The position numbers and the translations under genes were made by a program. Below, in pieces: positions 2,795 through 40,368 of a stretch of DNA of 40,368 bases. The stretch spans positions 1-40,368 of the IMG/VR virus record IMGVR_UViG_3300049440_000162; one strand, given 5' to 3'. The notes beneath the pieces were generated by a model, which was given only the letters and a program-made list of their open reading frames with translations, was not told where the DNA came from and searched no databases. Position 1 is the first letter of the stretch, and each line of letters starts with the position of its first letter. This DNA comes from a virus.

Positions 2795-2909
2795 TGGTTC
2801 ACCGCATGCCGATCCTTGCCCCTTTGCACGAGACCGTGTCAGTGCGGTTCGCGGCAAAGGGGCAAGGATGTACCGCTACGAAGACGGTCACATGCATGCG
2901 GTGAACCAC
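2794..2909. repeat. Hairpin element HE1, long (nested) form
   Basis: Outer arms of 16 bp are perfect: GTGGTTCACCGCATGC at 2794-2809 and its complement at 2894-2909. Inside the outer core a second complete hairpin occupies 2812-2869 with 16-bp arms (ATCCTTGCCCCTTTGC and complement) and a 26-nt core. The inner unit sits between the leading CG of the outer core and its GTACC. The element starts on the last base of the upstream stop codon and ends 20 bases before the next start. It has no T-run, so it is not a standard terminator. Confidence 0.9.
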
Positions 2910-5421: not shown

Positions 5422-5774
5422 TGTTGGAAAGGAGTTTGCATGTGAATCCTGCCCATGCTGCCCAGCGGGCGCCCGCACCCGAGACCGTTACATCCTTGGC
5501 GGCTTGCCGCGAACCGCTCCAAAACGAGGTTAGGCGCCTGTCCGAGGATGAGTTGTGCTACCACCGGAGGGTCGTCGCGGCAGTGCAGGAAGCACGGCAG
5601 CGATTGGCGCTCGCGGAGGCAGTGGGGAGCGCGTGGTTCGCGCACCTGATGGAGCGCTACGGGCTCGCCGAGACCGATGTCGTCGAAGTCGATGGCGCCA
5701 TCACGCGCGTGTCCGCACCGCGGGACGCGCGTGTAGTGCGCGACACGGCATCGCCGTCTCCAAAGAAAGGCTAG
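5421..5774 (+). CDS. Small hypothetical tail-region protein
   Basis: A 117-residue protein translationally coupled to the hydrolase (TGATG). The N-terminal 32 residues are encoded by a decayed hairpin element (5426-5516) and are probably not part of the original fold; a second possible start is GTG 5442 with AAAGGAG upstream. The conserved-looking part is alpha-helical (LSEDELCYHRRVVAAVQEAR onward) and ends with a basic tail. The size and position fit a small tail-completion protein or linker, but no family is recognised. Confidence 0.55.
   Translation: MLERSLHVNPAHAAQRAPAPETVTSLAACREPLQNEVRRLSEDELCYHRRVVAAVQEARQRLALAEAVGSAWFAHLMERYGLAETDVVEVDGAITRVSAPRDARVVRDTASPSPKKG
5426..5516. repeat. 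Hairpin element HE2, truncated long form (remnant)
   Basis: A left arm-like segment at 5426-5439 ends in TTTGC and is followed by ATGTGA, the reverse-orientation core start. Further on, CGTTAC is followed at once by ATCCTTGGCGGCTTGC and CGCGAACCG, which matches a left inner arm plus half of the inner core as in HE1 and HE7. The right inner arm and right outer arm are missing. It looks like a long-form element that lost its right half and was absorbed into the reading frame. Confidence 0.45.
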
Positions 5775-16443: not shown

Positions 16444-16863
16444 ATGCCTGAGATCGCAGCCGCGGGTATCCCCACCATTGTTGCCTACCTCACGGCGCCA
16501 CGCGCGGATGAAGAAGCGTTTGCCAAGAAGCGCACTGCACGCTCTCGTGCAAACGCTTCTTCAGCTATCGGTCACGAGGGTATGCCAGACGCATGCTTGA
16601 CCGACGCATCTTTTTACATTTTGGATCACCCGATGCCGTGTACAGCCGAACTGTCACATGCATCGGGTGATCCAACTCCCGCGAGAGGGGGTGAGGGGGA
16701 TGGACGGGAAACTGATCCGCGAGGGCGACCTGGTGGACCAGCTGATGGACTTCAACGCGCGGCTGATGCAGCGCAACCGGGAGGACCAGCGCGCGCTTTG
16801 GATCACCCGATGCCGTGTACAGCCGAACTGTCACATGCATCGGGTGATCCAAACGACGACTGA
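16444..16863 (+). CDS. Small early gene extended by hairpin elements
   Basis: ATG 16444 follows AGGAGG and comes two bases after the previous stop. The first 22 residues (MPEIAAAGIPTIVAYLTAPR) look native. The rest of the 139-residue frame passes through three hairpin elements (16509-16563, 16621-16675 and the copy at 16798-16852) and overlaps the next gene by 164 bases, so most of it is probably not original protein. Removing the first 55-base element gives a short product of about 33 residues ending near 16600. No function can be assigned. Confidence 0.4.
   Translation: MPEIAAAGIPTIVAYLTAPRADEEAFAKKRTARSRANASSAIGHEGMPDACLTDASFYILDHPMPCTAELSHASGDPTPARGGEGDGRETDPRGRPGGPADGLQRAADAAQPGGPARALDHPMPCTAELSHASGDPNDD
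16509..16563. repeat. Hairpin element HE3
   Basis: Perfect 15-bp arms TGAAGAAGCGTTTGC and complement around a 25-nt core. The core stem is AGCG/CGCT and the bulged C is kept. It lies inside the frame that starts at 16444. Confidence 0.85.
16621..16675. repeat. Hairpin element HE4
   Basis: Perfect 16-bp arms TTGGATCACCCGATGC and complement around a 23-nt core beginning CGTGTACAG and ending CTGTCACAT. It is identical over 55 bases to HE5 at 16798, but the flanks differ. It lies just upstream of the ribosome site of the next gene. Confidence 0.9.
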
Positions 16864-16945
16864 CCGAGTTGGCGCTCGCACTCGAACAGCGCCGGCGCAA
16901 ACACGCGCCAATCGACATGCCGACAGCAGACGGGCAAACGTCTGA
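16700..16945 (+). CDS. Small early gene frameshifted by a hairpin element
   Basis: ATG 16700 follows a GA-rich ribosome site. Residues 1-33 (MDGKLIREGDLVDQLMDFNA and on to QRAL) form a good helical N-terminus. HE5 then interrupts the frame; as read, translation ends at 16945 after a poor-quality Thr/Arg-rich stretch. If the 55 bases 16798-16852 are removed, the frame continues as RRLTELALALEQRRRKHAPI and a short tail to a TGA at 16956-16958, with much better codon bias. So either the gene is broken by the element or the hairpin is bypassed. The protein family is unknown. Confidence 0.6.
   Translation: MDGKLIREGDLVDQLMDFNARLMQRNREDQRALWITRCRVQPNCHMHRVIQTTTDRVGARTRTAPAQTRANRHADSRRANV
16798..16852. 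repeat. Hairpin element HE5 (twin of HE4)
   Basis: Same 16-bp arms and 23-nt core as HE4; one further T-A pair extends the stem to 17 bp. It sits inside a coding sequence, and its length (55, not a multiple of three) shifts the frame. Exact removal restores an open frame. Confidence 0.9.
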
Positions 16946-16986
16946 GGCGGCGGAGTGAACTGGATCCTGCTTAGGAGATTGTACAC

Positions 16987-17250
16987 ATGGAATCATCAAT
17001 GGTCAAGGAATCAATGGGAAGCCCTTTGCATGTGACCGCAGAGGACGGTACACGGCAAAGGGCTTCCCACCCTCCTGTCGTCATGGCGGACGAATCGGCA
17101 TGGGTGCGGCTGCTCGCCCCGCGGAGCCCACAGGAGGCAGCGATGGCGCAGCGGATTGCCGTGGCGTCGCGGCACATCTGGGCATTCCGCCTTCGTCTCA
17201 CGGTGGAGGAGCGCATGGCGTGGTATCGCGCATGGGGGTGGCAGGAATGA
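16987..17250 (+). CDS. Small hypothetical protein with N-terminal hairpin insertion
   Basis: An 87-residue protein. HE6 encodes about residues 10-28, in frame. The rest (MADESAWVRLLAPRSPQEAA onward) is helical with several Arg and Trp. AGGAG lies 11 bases before ATG 16987; ATG 17083, after the element, is a possible original start. The stop overlaps the next start (ATGA). No family is recognised. Confidence 0.55.
   Translation: MESSMVKESMGSPLHVTAEDGTRQRASHPPVVMADESAWVRLLAPRSPQEAAMAQRIAVASRHIWAFRLRLTVEERMAWYRAWGWQE
17015..17069. repeat. Hairpin element HE6
   Basis: Perfect 15-bp arms TGGGAAGCCCTTTGC and complement around a 25-nt core in the reverse orientation. Its arm shares AAGCCCTTTGC with HE7. 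It lies near the 5' end of the gene starting at 16987 and keeps the frame open. Confidence 0.9.
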
Positions 17251-17888
17251 GTCGGAAAGAGCCCGCGCGTCCGACGCATGAGGACGCGAAAGCGATCCGC
17301 CGGGCCGTCGCGTATCTGGAGAAGCTTGGCCGCCTGGACGAACTCCAGCGCGCGGTGATGGCGGATGTCGCGGACATCCTCGACGAGGCGCTCACGAGCG
17401 GAGCGGTGATCCGGATCCGCATCCTGAATCAGGGGACGCCACCGAGCGAGAGGAAGCGACAGGCGGCGCGGGCCACGCTGGTCAAGGCGCGCGCCAGGAA
17501 GTTCGTCTACGCGGCGCCCGAGTGGACGTCGGAGGAGAACGTGCTCTTCCGCCACCTGTGGGCGGAGACGGACACGCCAACCGGGGTGATTGCCGACCGT
17601 TTCGGGCGCACGCCGACCGCGGTACAGAATCATGCGACGGAGCTGGGCGTGCGTCGATCTCCGGGCTATCTGGCACGCACGACGCCACTCGGTCGCGCGC
17701 GTCTGGTGATCGCGCGGCGGCGGGCGCAGGAGCAGTTGGCACAACGGAATTTGGAAAGCCCTTTGCACGAGAGCGTGGAGTGCGCTTCATCCTTCTCCGC
17801 TTGCCGCGAACCGTCTCTGTGCGGTCTCGTGCAAGCGGAGAAGGATCGGCAAAGGGCTTTCCAACAGGAACTGGTGGAAGTGATATGA
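17247..17888 (+). CDS. Myb/homeodomain-like DNA-binding protein
   Basis: A 213-residue protein. Residues about 10-60 are helical (EDAKAIRRAVAYLEKLGRLD). Residues about 90-135 form a SANT/Myb-like helical module: EWTSEENVLFRHLW, then GVIADRFGRTPTAVQNHATE, resembling helix-turn-helix proteins that read DNA with a third helix. The C-terminal 38 residues come from the in-frame long hairpin HE7; native sequence returns only for the last few residues. Start and stop both overlap neighbours by four bases (ATGA). Its neighbour is the RecT-like gene. A regulatory or recombination-accessory role is inferred. Confidence 0.6.
   Translation: MSRKEPARPTHEDAKAIRRAVAYLEKLGRLDELQRAVMADVADILDEALTSGAVIRIRILNQGTPPSERKRQAARATLVKARARKFVYAAPEWTSEENVLFRHLWAETDTPTGVIADRFGRTPTAVQNHATELGVRRSPGYLARTTPLGRARLVIARRRAQEQLAQRNLESPLHESVECASSFSACREPSLCGLVQAEKDRQRAFQQELVEVI
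17751..17864. repeat. Hairpin element HE7, long (nested) form
   Basis: Outer 16-bp perfect arms TTGGAAAGCCCTTTGC (17751-17766) and complement (17849-17864). A complete inner hairpin at 17789-17846 has 16-bp arms ATCCTTCTCCGCTTGC and complement and a 26-nt core nearly the same as the inner core of HE1. The inner unit sits at the same site of the outer core as in HE1. At 114 bases it keeps the host frame and encodes 38 residues. Confidence 0.92.
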
Positions 17889-18883
17889 CAACAACGTCGA
17901 CCCGGTCGGTGACCATCCGACCGGAACTGGAGATCAGCTCAGAGGAGCGGTTCTCGCACGAGGACATCGAACTGATGCGCGCCACGATCTGCAAGGGCGC
18001 GAGCGATGCGGAGTTCCGGCTGTTCCTGAACCAATGCGTGCGCACGGGGCTGGATCCGTTGGCACAGCAGATCTACAGCGTGCCGCGCGACGGTGGGCGC
18101 GTGATCCAGGTGGCGATTGACGGCTATCGGCTGGTCGCGCAGCGCACGGGCGCCTACGCGGGCAATGACGAACCGACGTTCGACACCGAGGAGGGCGAGC
18201 ATCCGAACATCGCCCGCGTGACCGTCTGGCGGCTCGTGGATGGTGAACCGCGTTCGTTCACGGGGATCGCGCGGTGGCAGGAGTTCAAGCCGCCGCCCCG
18301 CCAGGACATGATGTGGCTGAAGATGCCGTGGCACATGCTGGCAATGGCCGCGGAACGGCAGGCGCTGCGGAAGGCGTTCCCGCAGGAACTGGCCGGGCTG
18401 GAAACGAGCGACGATCCGCCGGTTGAAGGCCCTCATGCCGCGTACCGCCAAGACGGTCACGTGCATGAGGGCCTTCAAGAGGCGACACCGGCGCGCGTCA
18501 TCCGCACCGCGCCACCGCCGCAGCCGATCGCCCGGCCCCGCGCAGGTGGTTCCTCACGGTCACAACTCCGTGAAACAGTCGCGAACGCTGCACGGACCGC
18601 GATCAAGGCGACCATCGCCCCGATTGGTTCACCCGATGCACGTGACCGTGCAGTGCGGTACGCGGCATCGGGTGAACCAATACCGGCGGGACCGGATGAA
18701 GAAGACGCAGTGCTGCGGGACGAACTGCGCGAGCTGGGCACGCGCGGGTTCGACCTCGACAAGTTCCTGACGGGGCGAAACAAGGAACTGGACGACCTGA
18801 CGCGCGGGGAGCTGGAGGGGATCCTGCCGAACGCGCGAGCGGTGGTGGCGAAGCGGGTGGAGCGGCTGACGCAGCAGGCATAA
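17885..18883 (+). CDS. RecT/Bet-family single-strand annealing recombinase
   Basis: A 332-residue protein. Residues about 20-175 match the Bet/RecT annealase core: RATICKGASDAEFRLFLNQC, RTGLDPLAQQIYSVPR, GYRLVAQRTGAYAG and an AMAAERQALRKAFPQEL helix. It anneals complementary single strands for recombination and repair. The C-terminal region has two hairpin elements in frame (HE8, HE9), separated by a Pro/Arg linker, before a conserved-looking end (LRDELRELGTRGFDLDKFLT and on), probably a partner-binding helical module. It starts in an ATGA overlap. It is longer than usual for Bet-type proteins, partly because of the insertions. No partner exonuclease of RecE or Exo type is seen. Confidence 0.85.
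   Translation: MTTTSTRSVTIRPELEISSEERFSHEDIELMRATICKGASDAEFRLFLNQCVRTGLDPLAQQIYSVPRDGGRVIQVAIDGYRLVAQRTGAYAGNDEPTFDTEEGEHPNIARVTVWRLVDGEPRSFTGIARWQEFKPPPRQDMMWLKMPWHMLAMAAERQALRKAFPQELAGLETSDDPPVEGPHAAYRQDGHVHEGLQEATPARVIRTAPPPQPIARPRAGGSSRSQLRETVANAARTAIKATIAPIGSPDARDRAVRYAASGEPIPAGPDEEDAVLRDELRELGTRGFDLDKFLTGRNKELDDLTRGELEGILPNARAVVAKRVERLTQQA
18423..18478. repeat. Hairpin element HE8 in the recombinase gene
   Basis: Perfect 16-bp arms TTGAAGGCCCTCATGC (18423-18438) and complement (18463-18478) around a 24-nt core beginning CGCGTACCG and ending CGGTCACGT. It lies in the disordered linker after the annealase core, and the recombinase frame stays open through it. Confidence 0.92.
18624..18680. 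repeat. Hairpin element HE9 in the recombinase gene
   Basis: Perfect 16-bp arms TTGGTTCACCCGATGC and complement (one more A-T pair outside) around a 25-nt core in the reverse orientation. Its arm differs from HE4 at one base, and the other arm carries the matching change. Its 57 bases keep the frame. Confidence 0.92.
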
Positions 18884-19433: not shown

Positions 19434-19489
19434 CTGGGAAAGGGTTTGCCGTGTCGAGTACCGGCTCGCACACGCAAACCCTTTCCCAG
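19434..19489. repeat. Hairpin element HE10
   Basis: Perfect 16-bp arms CTGGGAAAGGGTTTGC and complement around a 24-nt core whose inner stem is CGAG/CTCG, a full compensatory replacement of the usual ACCG/CGGT. It starts three bases after the metallopeptidase stop. Confidence 0.92.
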
Positions 19490-19515: not shown

Positions 19516-19571
19516 TCGGTTGACCCGTTGCCGTGTACGGCCGGCACCGTCACACGCAACGGGTCAACCGA
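19516..19571. repeat. Hairpin element HE11
   Basis: Perfect 16-bp arms TCGGTTGACCCGTTGC and complement around a 24-nt core beginning CGTGTACGG. It is 26 bases after HE10 and 19 bases before the replication gene start. The arms are unrelated to those of HE10. Confidence 0.92.
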
Positions 19572-21593: not shown

Positions 21594-22384
21594 GTGCGCC
21601 TCTCGACCTCGCGGCCGTGCGAAACGCGCGAAAAGGCAATCCACACCGTTCTGCCCGTTTGCGCGTCGTCTGGGGCATCTCAGCCGCACTCCTGTATCTC
21701 CTGTGCATCATCGGCGCCAACTGGCTGCTCGCCACGTTCGGCGTCGTCACGGTCTTCGGACTCGCGATGCCCGCGGGCGTCTTCGCCGCCGGCGTCAGTT
21801 TCGGCGCGCGCGACTGGCTTCAGGAGACGGCGGGGCGGCCGGCGGTCATCCTCGGCATCGCCGTCGGGGCGATCCTTTCGACGGTCGTCTCACCCCTCCG
21901 GTACGCGCTCGCCAGCGGACTGGCGTTCCTGTGCAGTGAGACGTGCGACATGCTGGTCTACAGCCCACTGCGCACGAACCATCGTGCCTGGGCCGTGACC
22001 GCGTCGAATACGGTGGGCGCCGTCGTCGATAGCGCCGTGTTTCTGCTCATCGCTTTTGGCAGTCTCGCATTCTTCTGGGGGCAGGTGATCGGGAAAGAAC
22101 TCATGATTCTGCCGGCGCTCGTGGTCCTCTGGTTGGCGCGACGGCGGCGGGCCGTCGCGCGCACGACGAAGGATGAAGCAATGCCAACCCCAGCGATGAA
22201 TGGCCCGGGTGCATGCGGGAAGGAGTGCCCGCTTGCGGGAGGCAAGGTTGCGGGCAACACCTGTCCGTGGATCGACCACTGCGCGATGTGGCGCGACGAA
22301 CTGGCCTTCGAGCGGTTGGAGCAGCGGGAGAAGGCGGAGCGGCTGGCGAAAGAGCACCCAGAGATGTTTCGCGGTCCGCGGTGA
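21590..22384 (+). CDS. VUT/YhhQ-family queuosine-precursor transporter with Cys-rich tail
   Basis: A 264-residue membrane protein with about five to six membrane segments between residues 25 and 180. Family-like features are ANWLLATFGVV, a GARDWLQETAGR loop, SGLAFLCSETCDMLVYSPLR and ASNTVGAVVDSAVFLLIAFG, which fit the VUT (YhhQ, DUF165) transporters that import preQ0/preQ1. After a basic stretch comes a cytoplasmic tail with CGKEC, GNTCPWIDHC and a charged helix, not usual for the family. A start at 22182 could give that tail as a separate small zinc protein. The stop lies inside the left arm of HE12. Confidence 0.75.
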   Translation: MSAPLDLAAVRNARKGNPHRSARLRVVWGISAALLYLLCIIGANWLLATFGVVTVFGLAMPAGVFAAGVSFGARDWLQETAGRPAVILGIAVGAILSTVVSPLRYALASGLAFLCSETCDMLVYSPLRTNHRAWAVTASNTVGAVVDSAVFLLIAFGSLAFFWGQVIGKELMILPALVVLWLARRRRAVARTTKDEAMPTPAMNGPGACGKECPLAGGKVAGNTCPWIDHCAMWRDELAFERLEQREKAERLAKEHPEMFRGPR

Positions 22385-22433
22385 ACCCTTTGCCGTGTAC
22401 GGCTGGAACCGTCACATGCAAAGGGTTCACCGC
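22378..22433. repeat. Hairpin element HE12
   Basis: Perfect 16-bp arms GCGGTGAACCCTTTGC and complement around a 24-nt core beginning CGTGTACGG and ending CCGTCACAT. The TGA stop of the transporter gene is inside the left arm, as with HE1. Confidence 0.92.
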
Positions 22434-22480: not shown

Positions 22481-22758
22481 TGCCGGGGGAATCGACGGTG
22501 TATCAACGCCTGGCGCGGCGGGGCTTCCCGGTCATCGGGCATTACCTCGGTGCCGTCCTGACGTGGCCTGCGTATGCCGATAGCGAGAGGGTGGAGTCCG
22601 AAGTGGCCCGCATCGAAGCGGCATTCCCGTTCACACCGGAGTTTGAGGGTCTGATTGAGAACACGGACGCAATCAGTGAACTCCCGTATCAGCCACGGCA
22701 CTTCTCCTCGGACATCGACCACATGAAGCGGGCGGGGAAGCCGGAGGAAACACCATGA
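22459..22758 (+). CDS. Hypothetical protein
   Basis: A 99-residue protein with no recognised domain; the C-terminal half is acidic with a Pro-rich end. ATG 22459 follows GGAAGGGG; ATG 22438 is an alternative. The ribosome site and the first codons fall in the decayed hairpin HE13, so the element may supply the translation start. It overlaps the next gene as ATGA. Confidence 0.55.
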   Translation: MAGHTRRMPGESTVYQRLARRGFPVIGHYLGAVLTWPAYADSERVESEVARIEAAFPFTPEFEGLIENTDAISELPYQPRHFSSDIDHMKRAGKPEETP

Positions 22759-23036
22759 TTCAAGTCACTGAGGAAGCATGGTCAGGACTCAAGGACGAGG
22801 TGAAGTACCTCCGCACCGCCATTGCCGAGCGGGAGGAGGAGGCTTTGCGTGTGAGCGCACTACACGCCACACAGCAAAGCCTCCTCCTTGCTCGTATCGC
22901 CGCGCTCGAAGAGGCGTTGGCGTTCTATGCGGCAGATGACGGGGGCTGTTCCTTTGCCGACTATGACGTTGACACCAAGCGATTCGGCAAGCACGCCCTC
23001 GCCGCGCTCACCCAGGCGGCGGAAGGGGCTGGATGA
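22755..23036 (+). CDS. Coiled-coil protein carrying a hairpin element
   Basis: A 93-residue protein. Residues about 8-55 form a continuous amphipathic helix or coiled coil (LKDEVKYLRTAIAEREEEAL, then SLLLARIAALEEALAFYAAD). HE14 lies in the middle of it, in frame, and its translation (ALRVSALHATQQ) still suits a helix. The C-terminal 35 residues contain a GGCSFADYD turn and an Ala-rich helix. No family is recognised. Confidence 0.6.
   Translation: MIQVTEEAWSGLKDEVKYLRTAIAEREEEALRVSALHATQQSLLLARIAALEEALAFYAADDGGCSFADYDVDTKRFGKHALAALTQAAEGAG
22834..22888. repeat. Hairpin element HE14
   Basis: 15-bp arms AGGAGGAGGCTTTGC and complement, plus a G-T pair outside, around a 25-nt core. The core is the most diverged of the intact copies but keeps the bulged C and a GCG/CGC inner stem. 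It lies in frame in a coiled-coil gene. Confidence 0.75.
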
Positions 23037-23542
23037 TGACTGACACCGCCACGCCACGCACCGGCAGCGCGCAGGGGGTGCACGAGACACGAACAACGCT
23101 CTCCTTGCAACCCATCTCCTACCGTGAGGCGGTCGCATTCATCGCGCAGCACCATCGCCACCACGAACCGCCGCACGGGTACAAGTTCGGCATCGCCGTC
23201 AATGACGGGGAGAACGTTGTCGGCGTCGTGACGGTGGGGCGTCCGATTGCGCGCATGCTGGACGATGGCTATACCGCCGAAGTCACCCGCTGCTGCACCG
23301 ACAGCACGCCACACGTTGCGAGCAAACTGTACGCGGCGGCATGGCGGGCATGTCGGGCGATGGGCTACCGCAGGCTCATCACGTACACGCTCCGAGACGA
23401 GACGGGCGTCTCGCTCTGTGCAGCTGGCTGGCGAGTTGTCTATTACACGAAGGATCGCCCCGGTGGGTGGGACATGCCGGGAAGACCGCGCGTGGTGACG
23501 TACCCGACGACCGCGAAGACGCTGTGGGAGGTGGTTGCATGA
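23036..23542 (+). CDS. XF1762-like, GNAT-related protein
   Basis: A 168-residue protein. The segments FIAQHHRHHEPPHGYKFGIA, GRPIARMLDDGYTAEVTRCC, AAWRACRAMGYRRLITYTL and a final ASGWR-like AAGWRVVYYT resemble the phage/bacterial XF1762 family, which has a GNAT-like fold. The best-known phage relative of this fold is Mu Mom, a DNA-adenine modifier, but no specific Mom signature is certain here. Its reaction is therefore unknown. ATG 23033 and 23036 are both possible starts. Confidence 0.65.
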   Translation: MTDTATPRTGSAQGVHETRTTLSLQPISYREAVAFIAQHHRHHEPPHGYKFGIAVNDGENVVGVVTVGRPIARMLDDGYTAEVTRCCTDSTPHVASKLYAAAWRACRAMGYRRLITYTLRDETGVSLCAAGWRVVYYTKDRPGGWDMPGRPRVVTYPTTAKTLWEVVA

Positions 23543-24724: not shown

Positions 24725-25930
24725 ATGCGCAGCGATCGTCTCGGTGCACTGACGCCGGATCGGCGGAATGCGCGACGCCACACACCCCGCAACATCGGCA
24801 TGATCGAGACGAGCCTGCAAACCGATGGCTTCGGTCGTTCCATCCTCCTCGACCGTGACGGCAACATTCTCGCCGGCAATGGCGTCACCGAGGCGGCCGG
24901 AAATGTCGGCCTCGAGGATGTGATCGTCGTACCGTCCGATGGCACGAAGGTGATCGCCATTCAGCGCACCGATGTGGAACCGGGCAGCGCGCGCGCCGTC
25001 CGCCTCGCCATCGCGGACAACCGCACGCAGGAGTTGAGCGACTTTGATCCGGCGGTGATTGCCGCGCTCAGTGAAGAGATCGACCTGTCGGACTTCTGGC
25101 AGGCGGATGAGATGGACGCGCTCCTGGCGGGCATCACTGAGGACGTGCCTGCTGGCGATGATCCGGGTGCGGAGATGGATCGCGGCGATGAACTCGCGGC
25201 AGAGTACGGGGTTGAGCCAAATCAGCTTTGGGTGCTCGGCAGGCATCGGCTGATCGTGGGCGACTGCACCGATGACGCGACGATTGATCGCCTGATGGAT
25301 GGACAGCGTGCAGCAATGGTCTTCACTGATCCGCCCTATGGCGTGGACTATGATGGCGGGCTGAACGAGACGAAGCGCGACCGGATCATCGGTGACACCT
25401 CCGCCTCGCTCTATGCCGCCTGCATCGGCACGACCGCGCCATACTGCAATCCGCACGCACCGTGGTATCTCTGGTTTGCCGGCACGGTCGGCAAACCAGT
25501 CTATGAGGCCGTCGAGTATTACGGATACACCGTGCGCGCAATGATCGTCTGGAATAAGACCGATGCCCATTACGGCAACTTCATGGCGCAGTACATGCAG
25601 AAGCACGAACCCTGCCTGTACTGCGTGAAGGAGTCGCCGCAGTGGTACGGCCCCACGAATGAAGTGACCGTTTGGGATGTGAAGCAACCGAGCGTCAACG
25701 AGCATCATCCGACACAAAAGCCCATAGAACTCGCGGTGCGAGCGATTGAGAACAGCAGTGTGCGGGGTGCGCTCGTCTGCGATTGGTTCCTCGGCAGCGG
25801 CACGACCCTGATTGCCTGCGAGCAGATGGGGCGTACCTGCTACGCCGCAGAGATTGAACCGCGCTATGCCGCCGTCTCCATCAAGCGATGGGCAGACATG
25901 ACGGGCCTCACGCCGCGACGGGTGGACTGA
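24725..25930 (+). CDS. ParB-domain DNA methyltransferase (first of a tandem pair)
   Basis: A 401-residue fusion. Residues about 10-110 form a ParB/Srx-like N-terminal domain (DGFGRSILLDRDGNILAGNG, then IADNRTQELSDFD). Residues about 165-395 are an N6_N4-type DNA methyltransferase of the beta order: catalytic DPPYG (202-206) first and the SAM-binding FLGSGTT (about 356-362) last, pointing to adenine-N6 or cytosine-N4 methylation. Such fusions are common near terminase genes and probably protect phage DNA from restriction. GTGAGGG precedes ATG 24725. Its last 42 bases are repeated exactly at the end of the next gene. Confidence 0.85.
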   Translation: MRSDRLGALTPDRRNARRHTPRNIGMIETSLQTDGFGRSILLDRDGNILAGNGVTEAAGNVGLEDVIVVPSDGTKVIAIQRTDVEPGSARAVRLAIADNRTQELSDFDPAVIAALSEEIDLSDFWQADEMDALLAGITEDVPAGDDPGAEMDRGDELAAEYGVEPNQLWVLGRHRLIVGDCTDDATIDRLMDGQRAAMVFTDPPYGVDYDGGLNETKRDRIIGDTSASLYAACIGTTAPYCNPHAPWYLWFAGTVGKPVYEAVEYYGYTVRAMIVWNKTDAHYGNFMAQYMQKHEPCLYCVKESPQWYGPTNEVTVWDVKQPSVNEHHPTQKPIELAVRAIENSSVRGALVCDWFLGSGTTLIACEQMGRTCYAAEIEPRYAAVSIKRWADMTGLTPRRVD

Positions 25931-25932
25931 GT
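25891..25932. repeat. 42-base exact repeat (copy at 27111-27152)
   Basis: The 3' ends of the two methyltransferase genes, including the stop codon and two following bases, are identical at 25891-25932 and 27111-27152. The flanking coding sequence is much less similar, so recent conversion or a duplication junction is likely. Confidence 0.9.
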
Positions 25933-27150
25933 ATGCACTTACACATCAGCGATATCAAGCCCGCGGTCAAGAATGCGCGGGTCAGAACTGAGCGCGGCGC
26001 GGCCATGATTGCCAGGAGCATCAGCGAGAACGGCTTTGGTCGCTCCGTGCTGCTCGCCAATGACGGATCGCTGATCGCGGGCAGCGGCACGATTGACGCC
26101 TCGGCTGAGGTTGGCTTGGAGGACGTGATTATCGTCCCCTCGGATGGCACCAAGATCATCGCGGTGCAGCGCACCGATGTCGCACCGGGGAGCAAGCGGG
26201 CCCATGAACTCGCAATCGCTGACAATAGGACGACTGACCTCAGCGACTTCGATCCGGCAGTGATTGCGGCGCTCAGCGAAGAGATTGACCTGTCGGACTT
26301 CTGGCAGGCGGATGAGATGGACGCGCTGCTGGCGACGATGGCCGCCGACGATGCGCCTGCGGGAGAAGACCCTGGCGCGCAGATGGATCGCGCCGAGGAG
26401 TTGAACCAGAAGTGGCAGGTGCAGCGCGGCGATCTCTGGGAGATCGGGCGGCATCGGCTCCTGTGCGGCGATAGCACGGATGCGGGCGATGTTGCGCGGT
26501 TGATGACCGGCGAGAAGGCGGCGATGGTCTTCACCGATCCGCCATATGGTGTGGAATACATCGGTGGCACGACGCGGCGCGATGCGATTCAGGGCGATGA
26601 GACGCCCGATCTGTATGCCCCCGCAATGCTCCTGATTGCCGCGCACACGATCCCGAAAGCGGCGGTTTATCTGTGGCACTCGGACAGTAAATCCGCTGCC
26701 GTCTCCGCTGCCGTCTCCGCTGCCGTCTCCGCTGCCGGATTCGAACGCCGCTGCACGATTATCTGGAACAAGAACCTGGCGCAGTTTGGCGCACTCGGAG
26801 CGCAGTACAAGACGAAGCATGAGCCGTGCTATTACCTCTACAAGCACGGCCAATCGCCCCACTGGTACGGGCCGACAAATGAAGTGACGGTGTGGGATGT
26901 GGCGCGGGAATCTGTGAATGAGGATCATCCGATGCAGAAGCCGCCTGAACTCGCAGTGCGCGCGATGGAGAATAGCAGCCAATCCAGCGACGTCGTCTTT
27001 GATGGTTTCCTCGGTGGCGGCTCCACAATAGTCGCCGCCGAGCAGACCGGCCGCCGCTGCTACGGCATCGAGATTTCCGAGAAGTATTGCGCCGTGATCC
27101 TCGAGCGCATGGCAGACATGACGGGCCTCACGCCGCGACGGGTGGACTGA
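25933..27150 (+). CDS. ParB-domain DNA methyltransferase (second of a tandem pair)
   Basis: A 405-residue paralogue of the preceding gene with the same layout: ParB-like N-terminus (ENGFGRSVLLANDGSLIAGS), catalytic DPPYG near residue 205, SAM-binding FLGGGST near 362. It has a fourfold Ser-Ala-Ala-Val type insertion near residue 254-268 that the first copy lacks. The two proteins share a long identical segment around DLSDFWQADEMDALL and an identical C-terminus, but differ in the middle where target recognition resides, so they may methylate different sites. ATG 25933 is two bases after the previous stop. Confidence 0.85.
   Translation: MHLHISDIKPAVKNARVRTERGAAMIARSISENGFGRSVLLANDGSLIAGSGTIDASAEVGLEDVIIVPSDGTKIIAVQRTDVAPGSKRAHELAIADNRTTDLSDFDPAVIAALSEEIDLSDFWQADEMDALLATMAADDAPAGEDPGAQMDRAEELNQKWQVQRGDLWEIGRHRLLCGDSTDAGDVARLMTGEKAAMVFTDPPYGVEYIGGTTRRDAIQGDETPDLYAPAMLLIAAHTIPKAAVYLWHSDSKSAAVSAAVSAAVSAAGFERRCTIIWNKNLAQFGALGAQYKTKHEPCYYLYKHGQSPHWYGPTNEVTVWDVARESVNEDHPMQKPPELAVRAMENSSQSSDVVFDGFLGGGSTIVAAEQTGRRCYGIEISEKYCAVILERMADMTGLTPRRVD
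26692..26737. repeat. 12-base tandem repeat in methyltransferase 2
   Basis: TCCGCTGCCGTC occurs three times and partly a fourth time, encoding repeated Ser-Ala-Ala-Val. The unit is a multiple of three, so copy-number change would only lengthen a loop. Confidence 0.85.
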
Positions 27151-40100: not shown

Positions 40101-40368
40101 ATGCGCAAGCGTGCGAACGAACTCGCGGGCAGCGCCTATGTCTACGGCGGCGGTCATTCCAGCCAGGATGCGGGCGGGTTCGACTGTTCCGGCTACGTGA
40201 TCGAAGTGCTGCGCGCCGGCGGTATCAACGCGCCCTTCACCGATGCCGGTGGGCTCTACAAGTGGGCACAGACGGCGGAGGGATCGAAGCTCCTCGACGC
40301 CGCGGGCATCCAACTGGGCTTCTACAATCCCGGCGCCGGCGGCATGAACGAGCATGTTGGTATTAACA
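37101..40368 (+). CDS. Tape-measure protein, N-terminal part (continues at base 1)
   Basis: This is the first 1,089 codons of the tape measure, from GTG 37101 (AGGAG upstream) to the window end. Residues about 1-110 are coiled coil; about 110-320 form the conserved tape-measure N-terminal domain (TLEQTRIAFTSLFGSASRAN and DFMAQLQDFAKKTPFDFEAV). A long helical middle follows. Residues about 830-960 form a glucosaminidase-like domain (YNVDPRALLAFVKNEG, NNFGGIKGKGG). Residues about 1000-1085 are an NlpC/P60-like domain with catalytic Cys in FDCSGYVIEV and His across the junction. The domains would thin the host wall as DNA enters. With bases 1-1845 the full length is about 1,693 residues. Confidence 0.9.
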   Translation, partial: MPDSLVRVQLQATGADQILATLRAVRQEVALLGQQSARINLAANTTVVNQQLGQVTTQLTRINAITARARVDVDTSQAESRLSGLESKVSSLMTGTLAAAGAIIGVQITRGIGAATDAIVGFNSTLEQTRIAFTSLFGSASRANDFMAQLQDFAKKTPFDFEAVNHYAQRLLAVGFAAKDVIPDLTAMGNAVAAAGGNSETLDRVTLALGQMHGSVKLTAQDMNQLIQANIPAWRLLADQIGVTEAQARKMADAGKISGADASAAIIAAMSQQNVGLMDQMSKTFAGRLENLKDTFRSEMADLGKPLFEELSKAVDLASEALASPKFKQAALDMVNDLTAITRAAESVGTAFGKIPPGVSSFLEGALAPGHALIGAIKSLGAGPNLPGMTVPEPPAAAGEAPGGGAALLQQRAATGIMTDLTNQVRTGAMTADQARQQWRALSETFGGLFGNASDLSRLFSGELNQAIADHITQVNDATAAHERLQDTLKQAGQAQALGASSEDVGRAIFGITGTGAQATPEQIQRAKQDIQDLTTAYQRAASVIGTVDLAHGIAGFAAVAPDLARARDSLRDLGQSNQALDNLASLATQFKSLTDATDAATTAYRGFMLTLTETDQKIQQLSTFRGQVTAAVSDADRRRSLGIATPEDLTLLANYKNILANIDTMKTGLQRNATGDILGIAANYPDLKKSDDTLRDMIGKLGGPQQLEIDVKTNTDKALEQINDLLTKPHQATIDVQIATHLTGLPPALANIIASAAGAQAVGGASDGGYARPTTQRLVGGGPYGSGTLYQPGGAIGSAGGGGAGWNQFQPLSQAQYGGIVSSGPLANPQVYAGVMAAAQEYNVDPRALLAFVKNEGVAPSLAAVNNFGGIKGKGGPAAPANEGGTYAAYSSPADFFRSLAANLTTGAYAGDYQSGNLAAVRQRYVAGSATPSAAQQANIANTVSSYNDLVQQYPSGAGGVITPQVPGSSTLTSRVSLTQPTPIQAGAGQTVTPNQVAAMRKRANELAGSAYVYGGGHSSQDAGGFDCSGYVIEVLRAGGINAPFTDAGGLYKWAQTAEGSKLLDAAGIQLGFYNPGAGGMNEHVGIN
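40338..40368. repeat. Terminal direct repeat, right copy
   Basis: Matches bases 1-31 at 30 of 31 positions and keeps the tape-measure frame across the junction, so the genome is about 40,337 bases when closed. Confidence 0.85.

Follow-up and report, generated by a model that had tools for sequence, protein, structure and literature searches.

A 55-nt hairpin splitting a small phage gene is probably a recent insertion of a short mobile palindrome

Introduction

In the 40,368-nt viral record analyzed here (the whole of which we refer to as the window), a small gene on the plus strand (16700-16958) is split by a 55-nt hairpin that breaks its reading frame. This raises the question of whether the hairpin was inserted recently or whether it is passed over when the gene is expressed. 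A first, sequence-only reading had left both options standing, i.e., a recent insertion or a transcript hairpin over which ribosomes jump, as they do in T4 gene 60 and at yeast mitochondrial byp elements.

Results

Homologues with an empty site identify the ancestral frame

As written, translation from the ATG at 16700 yields 81 aa and ends at a stop at 16945. With positions 16798-16852 removed, the N-terminus continues into RRLTELALALEQRRRKHAPI...SEAAE, giving a 67-aa product (MDGKLIREGDLVDQLMDFNARLMQRNREDQRALRRLTELALALEQRRRKHAPIDMPTADGQTSEAAE) that terminates at 16956-16958; both stops had been predicted in the sequence-only reading and are borne out by translation. No function could be assigned to the gene, and a family search with its product returned no match to any family. 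Two related contigs of the viral collection, L041 and L042 (the latter overlapped by L026 and counted together with it as one), encode the joined protein as an intact 72-aa chain with five extra residues, 78% identical over all 67 residues. Where these homologues read CGC-GAG-TTG-CGA-CGG, the window carries CGCGCGCT[55 nt]ACGACGA, corresponding to a net insert of exactly 55 nt, the edges of which are ambiguous by 1 or 2 nt owing to the T and A found there. Deleting the hairpin thus does rejoin the two gene halves as had been proposed, and the suggested comparison with homologues lacking the element revealed an empty site followed by the expected downstream frame. Taken together, the alignments indicate a genuine frame-break and mark the frame past the element as ancestral.

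Codon usage had been put forward as a further argument, the downstream frame being said to share the bias of neighboring genes. While the first 32 codons of the gene score +12.3, the homologous frame past the element reaches -0.2; this is better than the as-written frame (-9.9), but it is not itself a positive score. Codon bias therefore supports the homologous frame in relative terms only, and weakly when taken alone, so that we assign the downstream frame by homology instead. No decay is visible in this frame, a finding explained by recency but also by translational bypass. Judging from the sequence, the gene most likely specifies at present an 81-aa product whose C-terminus is foreign, and the hairpin has probably impaired it; the hairpin is probably young, or else the gene is dispensable.

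The hairpin has an identical copy 177 nt upstream

The frame-breaking element (HE5; 16798-16852, plus strand) consists of a perfect 16-bp stem and a 23-nt loop, scores 65.8 bits with the covariance model described below, and folds with z-scores of -8.6 (DNA) and -8.3 (RNA). The window itself contains a dozen hairpins that combine a stem of at least 15 bp with a loop of this size, as against none in six Markov-resampled controls. Intrinsic termination is not suggested by the surrounding sequence, in that no T-run follows HE5 (the next bases being ACGACGACTGACC) and T is not enriched in the flanks of 66 element sites.

A sister copy on the same strand (16621-16675), missing from L041, lies 177 nt away and is identical to HE5 over 56 nt, for which reason HE5 is probably very recent. 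Four sites occupied in the window (16621, 16798, 17015 and 18624) are unoccupied in relatives. Since the homologous gene is intact and the sister copy identical, the direction of change appears to have been gain and not precise loss.

HE5 belongs to a structurally conserved hairpin family

Relatives of HE5 were gathered by pattern scans. The family is present in more than 25 metagenomic contigs of uncultured phages, some of which share no more than 28-42% identity with the window in their portal and capsid proteins, and a covariance model detected the element in 27 of 27 records, all of which had been preselected as carriers. Members are 54-60 nt long and pair a perfect 15-17-bp stem of variable sequence, ending inwardly in TGC/GCA, with a conserved core made up of two single-base bulges and two 4-bp helices. 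Longer versions of ~86 nt, with an extra GC-rich hairpin in the apical loop, occur in two contigs (L037:5925-6030 and L023:85-190).

Across 52 aligned members, 99.6% of cells are paired, with 304 cells changed on both sides versus five on one side only, and a single G-U outside a fixed G-T position. A hand tally of the 16 outer pairs gave 256 two-sided changes, ~167 of them transversions, for which there is no route through G-U. From this two-sided, nearly pure Watson-Crick covariation we infer that the stem is constrained at the DNA level.

The family is apparently undescribed so far. Rfam gave no match above chance, a scan of 84,980 species genomes for the exact core pattern gave no hit, and blastn retrieved the element neither from INPHARED phages (7-kb query) nor from PLSDB (one element as query), the pattern and blastn searches being of limited sensitivity. 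A terminase search for the host returned diffuse matches, mainly alphaproteobacterial and of 47-56% identity, and the element was absent from six such genomes. Open-licence literature, searched with few term combinations, yielded no description of the family.

Copies concentrate at gene junctions and are mostly frame-preserving inside genes

The window holds 13 family hairpins in total, one of them split by another. Besides HE5 and its sister, one copy lies in an upstream short ORF (16508-16564, plus strand; hairpin scan and covariance model) and one at 17015-17069 (minus strand; homologue comparison and covariance model), near the start of its host gene (16987-17250), which is a net 18 residues longer than the L041 homologue. 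The split copy (17751-17864, minus strand) harbors a second one in the opposite orientation (17789-17846), and recT contains two in-frame copies, at 18423-18478 (plus strand; net 15 residues relative to homologues) and at 18624-18680 (minus strand; exactly 57 nt, or 19 residues). The covariance model further located intergenic copies at 2812-2869 (minus strand), 19434-19489 (plus strand, directly 3' of a stop codon) and 19516-19571 (plus strand), a copy supplying the stop codon of the preceding predicted gene (22378-22433, plus strand), and one in frame within gene 22755-23036 (22834-22888, minus strand), in addition to the split pair. The hairpins at 22378 and 22834 are both present in L038, a 10.6-kb contig near-identical to the window at ~19.8-30.4 kb. 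A fragment at 5481-5516 resembles the left arm and loop start of a CGCGAACCG-class element but has no right arm, and is possibly a decayed or rearranged copy.

Among 66 distinct sites in the family, 58 fall between genes or no more than 45 nt from an end of a predicted gene, compared to ~18 expected for random points and a maximum of 31 over 300 trials; a stop codon lies in or next to 14 sites, and a start codon in or next to 11. All eight interior copies fall in genes predicted as a single open frame, and the method of gene prediction thus accounts in part for their appearing in frame. Homologues independently support an in-frame reading for the two RecT inserts (+19 residues at 18624-18680 and a net +15 at 18423) and for the 16987 gene (+18). 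The 16621 copy adds a net 54 nt, but its in-frame reading is not counted as firm, since the surrounding 16444 ORF is a doubtful gene. HE5 is the only clear interior frame-breaker. A frame test by codon scores over 99-nt flanks proved too noisy for use alone, and the further frameshifts that it called (in L031, L036 and L040) were rejected, as they lie where neighboring genes meet. Likewise, a surplus of open frames within the elements was seen relative to hairpin-symmetric shuffles only and not relative to ordinary shuffles, and was for this reason left out of the evidence.

Filled and empty sites indicate mobility

Two pairs of contigs with identical flanks differ by the presence of an element, i.e., L019 (5103-5156; 54 nt) versus L036 and L021 (515-570; 56 nt) versus L020, and neither pair shows a target-site duplication. 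The window, L002, L004 and L037 all contain copies nested within the core of another copy, and L023 carries three copies with one and the same stem. Family copies insert precisely and in either orientation. No target-site motif was found, the flanks beyond the stem carrying no information across the 66 sites; selection therefore fits the placement of the copies better than sequence targeting does. We consider it very likely that the element at 16798 is a recent insert of a short mobile DNA palindrome, derived from the 16621 copy or from the same source, which split the gene and shifted its frame. This bears out the insertion half of the sequence-only reading, supported by the empty sites in relatives and by the identical sister copy.

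Discussion

The main rival to a recent insertion is programmed translational bypass, in which ribosomes would detach from the message no later than the hairpin and take up translation again beyond it, such that the 67-aa protein would still be made. HE5 shares with the T4 gene 60 gap and the Magnusiomyces mitochondrial byp elements (PMC5009743) a block of ~50 nt that forms a hairpin and splits a gene out of frame, and both halves of the interrupted gene match the intact homologue without decay. In gene 60, however, take-off and landing both occur at GGA codons, a stop comes right after take-off and a nascent-peptide signal takes part, although some of these requirements are relaxed in byp elements (PMC5009743). 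At the edges of HE5, the needed frame offers no identical codon pair, the nearest being CGC/CGA, both of which a single Arg tRNA could perhaps read; nor does a stop follow take-off, the frame remaining open through the element until 16945. Moreover, relatives in the same genome are either intergenic or translated at the sequence level, the interior ones preserving the frame, which speaks against skipping as a general habit of the family, and the hairpins are found in either orientation and for the most part outside genes. Given the frame kept elsewhere, the lack of matched codons and the two orientations, we favor insertion over bypass; skipping during translation, the other option of the sequence-only reading, is unsupported and appears very improbable.

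Two further explanations can be weighed against the same observations. A misassembly, whereby a second, identical copy was misplaced from 16621 to 16798, might be suspected from the occurrence of two identical copies 177 nt apart within one metagenomic record. Yet on either side the flanking sequence agrees with the homologue as far as the junction itself, and copies at other sites obey the same insertion rules, which renders an artefact even less probable than bypass. We give the least credence to removal of the hairpin ahead of expression, either from the RNA or by precise excision from the DNA, which would restore the gene. Filled and empty sites do differ by exactly the element, as such excision would predict, but Rfam offers no match, searches of 15 carriers, several of them fragments, turned up no common recombinase, and the in-frame maintenance of the RecT copies would be needless were the elements removed. 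We know of no splicing elements this short.

If HE5 is indeed a mobile palindrome that inserted recently, it would most likely move as DNA, in the form of a folded single strand or a cruciform. The element may be recognized through its double-bulged core, with the stem kept perfect by re-copying one arm from the other and a putative enzyme mobilizing the element in trans. Harmful insertions into genes would be lost, leaving a bias toward gene junctions. Searches of 15 carrier records, several of them fragments, revealed neither a Y1/HUH transposase nor a reverse transcriptase, and an integrase in two. That the family represents a new type of minimal phage-borne mobile element, i.e., a single 54-60-nt hairpin recognized by its core, rebuilt arm from arm and mobilized in trans with no target duplication, is a tentative proposal that we hold to be possible but rather less than probable.

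Of the systems described, REP/BIME palindromes, which are mobilized by RAYT (Y1/HUH) transposases, resemble the family in being short, bulged, mobile hairpins with many grouped and mostly intergenic copies (PMC3733652). In contrast to REPs, the elements here have no conserved foot (a tetranucleotide tag of the GTAG/CGTC type), their stems measure 15-17 bp versus mostly 6-9, and G-T pairs, frequent in REPs, are nearly absent (PMC3733652). Unlike the REP/RAYT system, the family is also borne by phages, in carriers of which none among the 15, several fragmentary, showed a Y1 transposase. Rickettsia palindromic elements (RPEs) likewise insert in frame into proteins, as do the 19 residues in RecT at the sequence level; by description, RPEs are set apart by a length of ~150 bp and a location mainly within genes, whereas the family here spans 54-60 nt and sits mainly at gene junctions (PMC10969869). 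With prokaryotic MITEs it shares a non-coding, non-autonomous nature and terminal inverted repeats (PMC10969869), but no target-site duplication accompanies the two filled/empty pairs, and it is the inverted repeats that vary freely and the center that is conserved. The RHE hairpin families of sponge mitochondria also invade a compact genome at mostly intergenic positions; RHEs are organellar, unlike the phage family (PMC2800124).

Bypass, if true, would add one more rare phage case, but the balance of evidence is unfavorable to it. The lasting result is a family of tiny mobile palindromes, conserved in structure and apparently undescribed, that is carried by uncultured phages. Its filled/empty pairs, nesting and near-pure Watson-Crick covariation provide material for studying how very short hairpins move, while RecT and similar phage proteins offer cases for studying the tolerance of translated inserts.

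Elsewhere in the window, a 31-nt near-exact repeat with one mismatch occupies both ends (1-31 and 40338-40368), and the record is therefore probably a complete phage genome, circularly closed or permuted. A Mom-like DNA modification gene is located at 23033-23542, and the region 24800-27150 comprises two tandem, diverged N6/N4-type DNA methylase genes (75% identical in 300-nt blocks), which are found in L038 as well.
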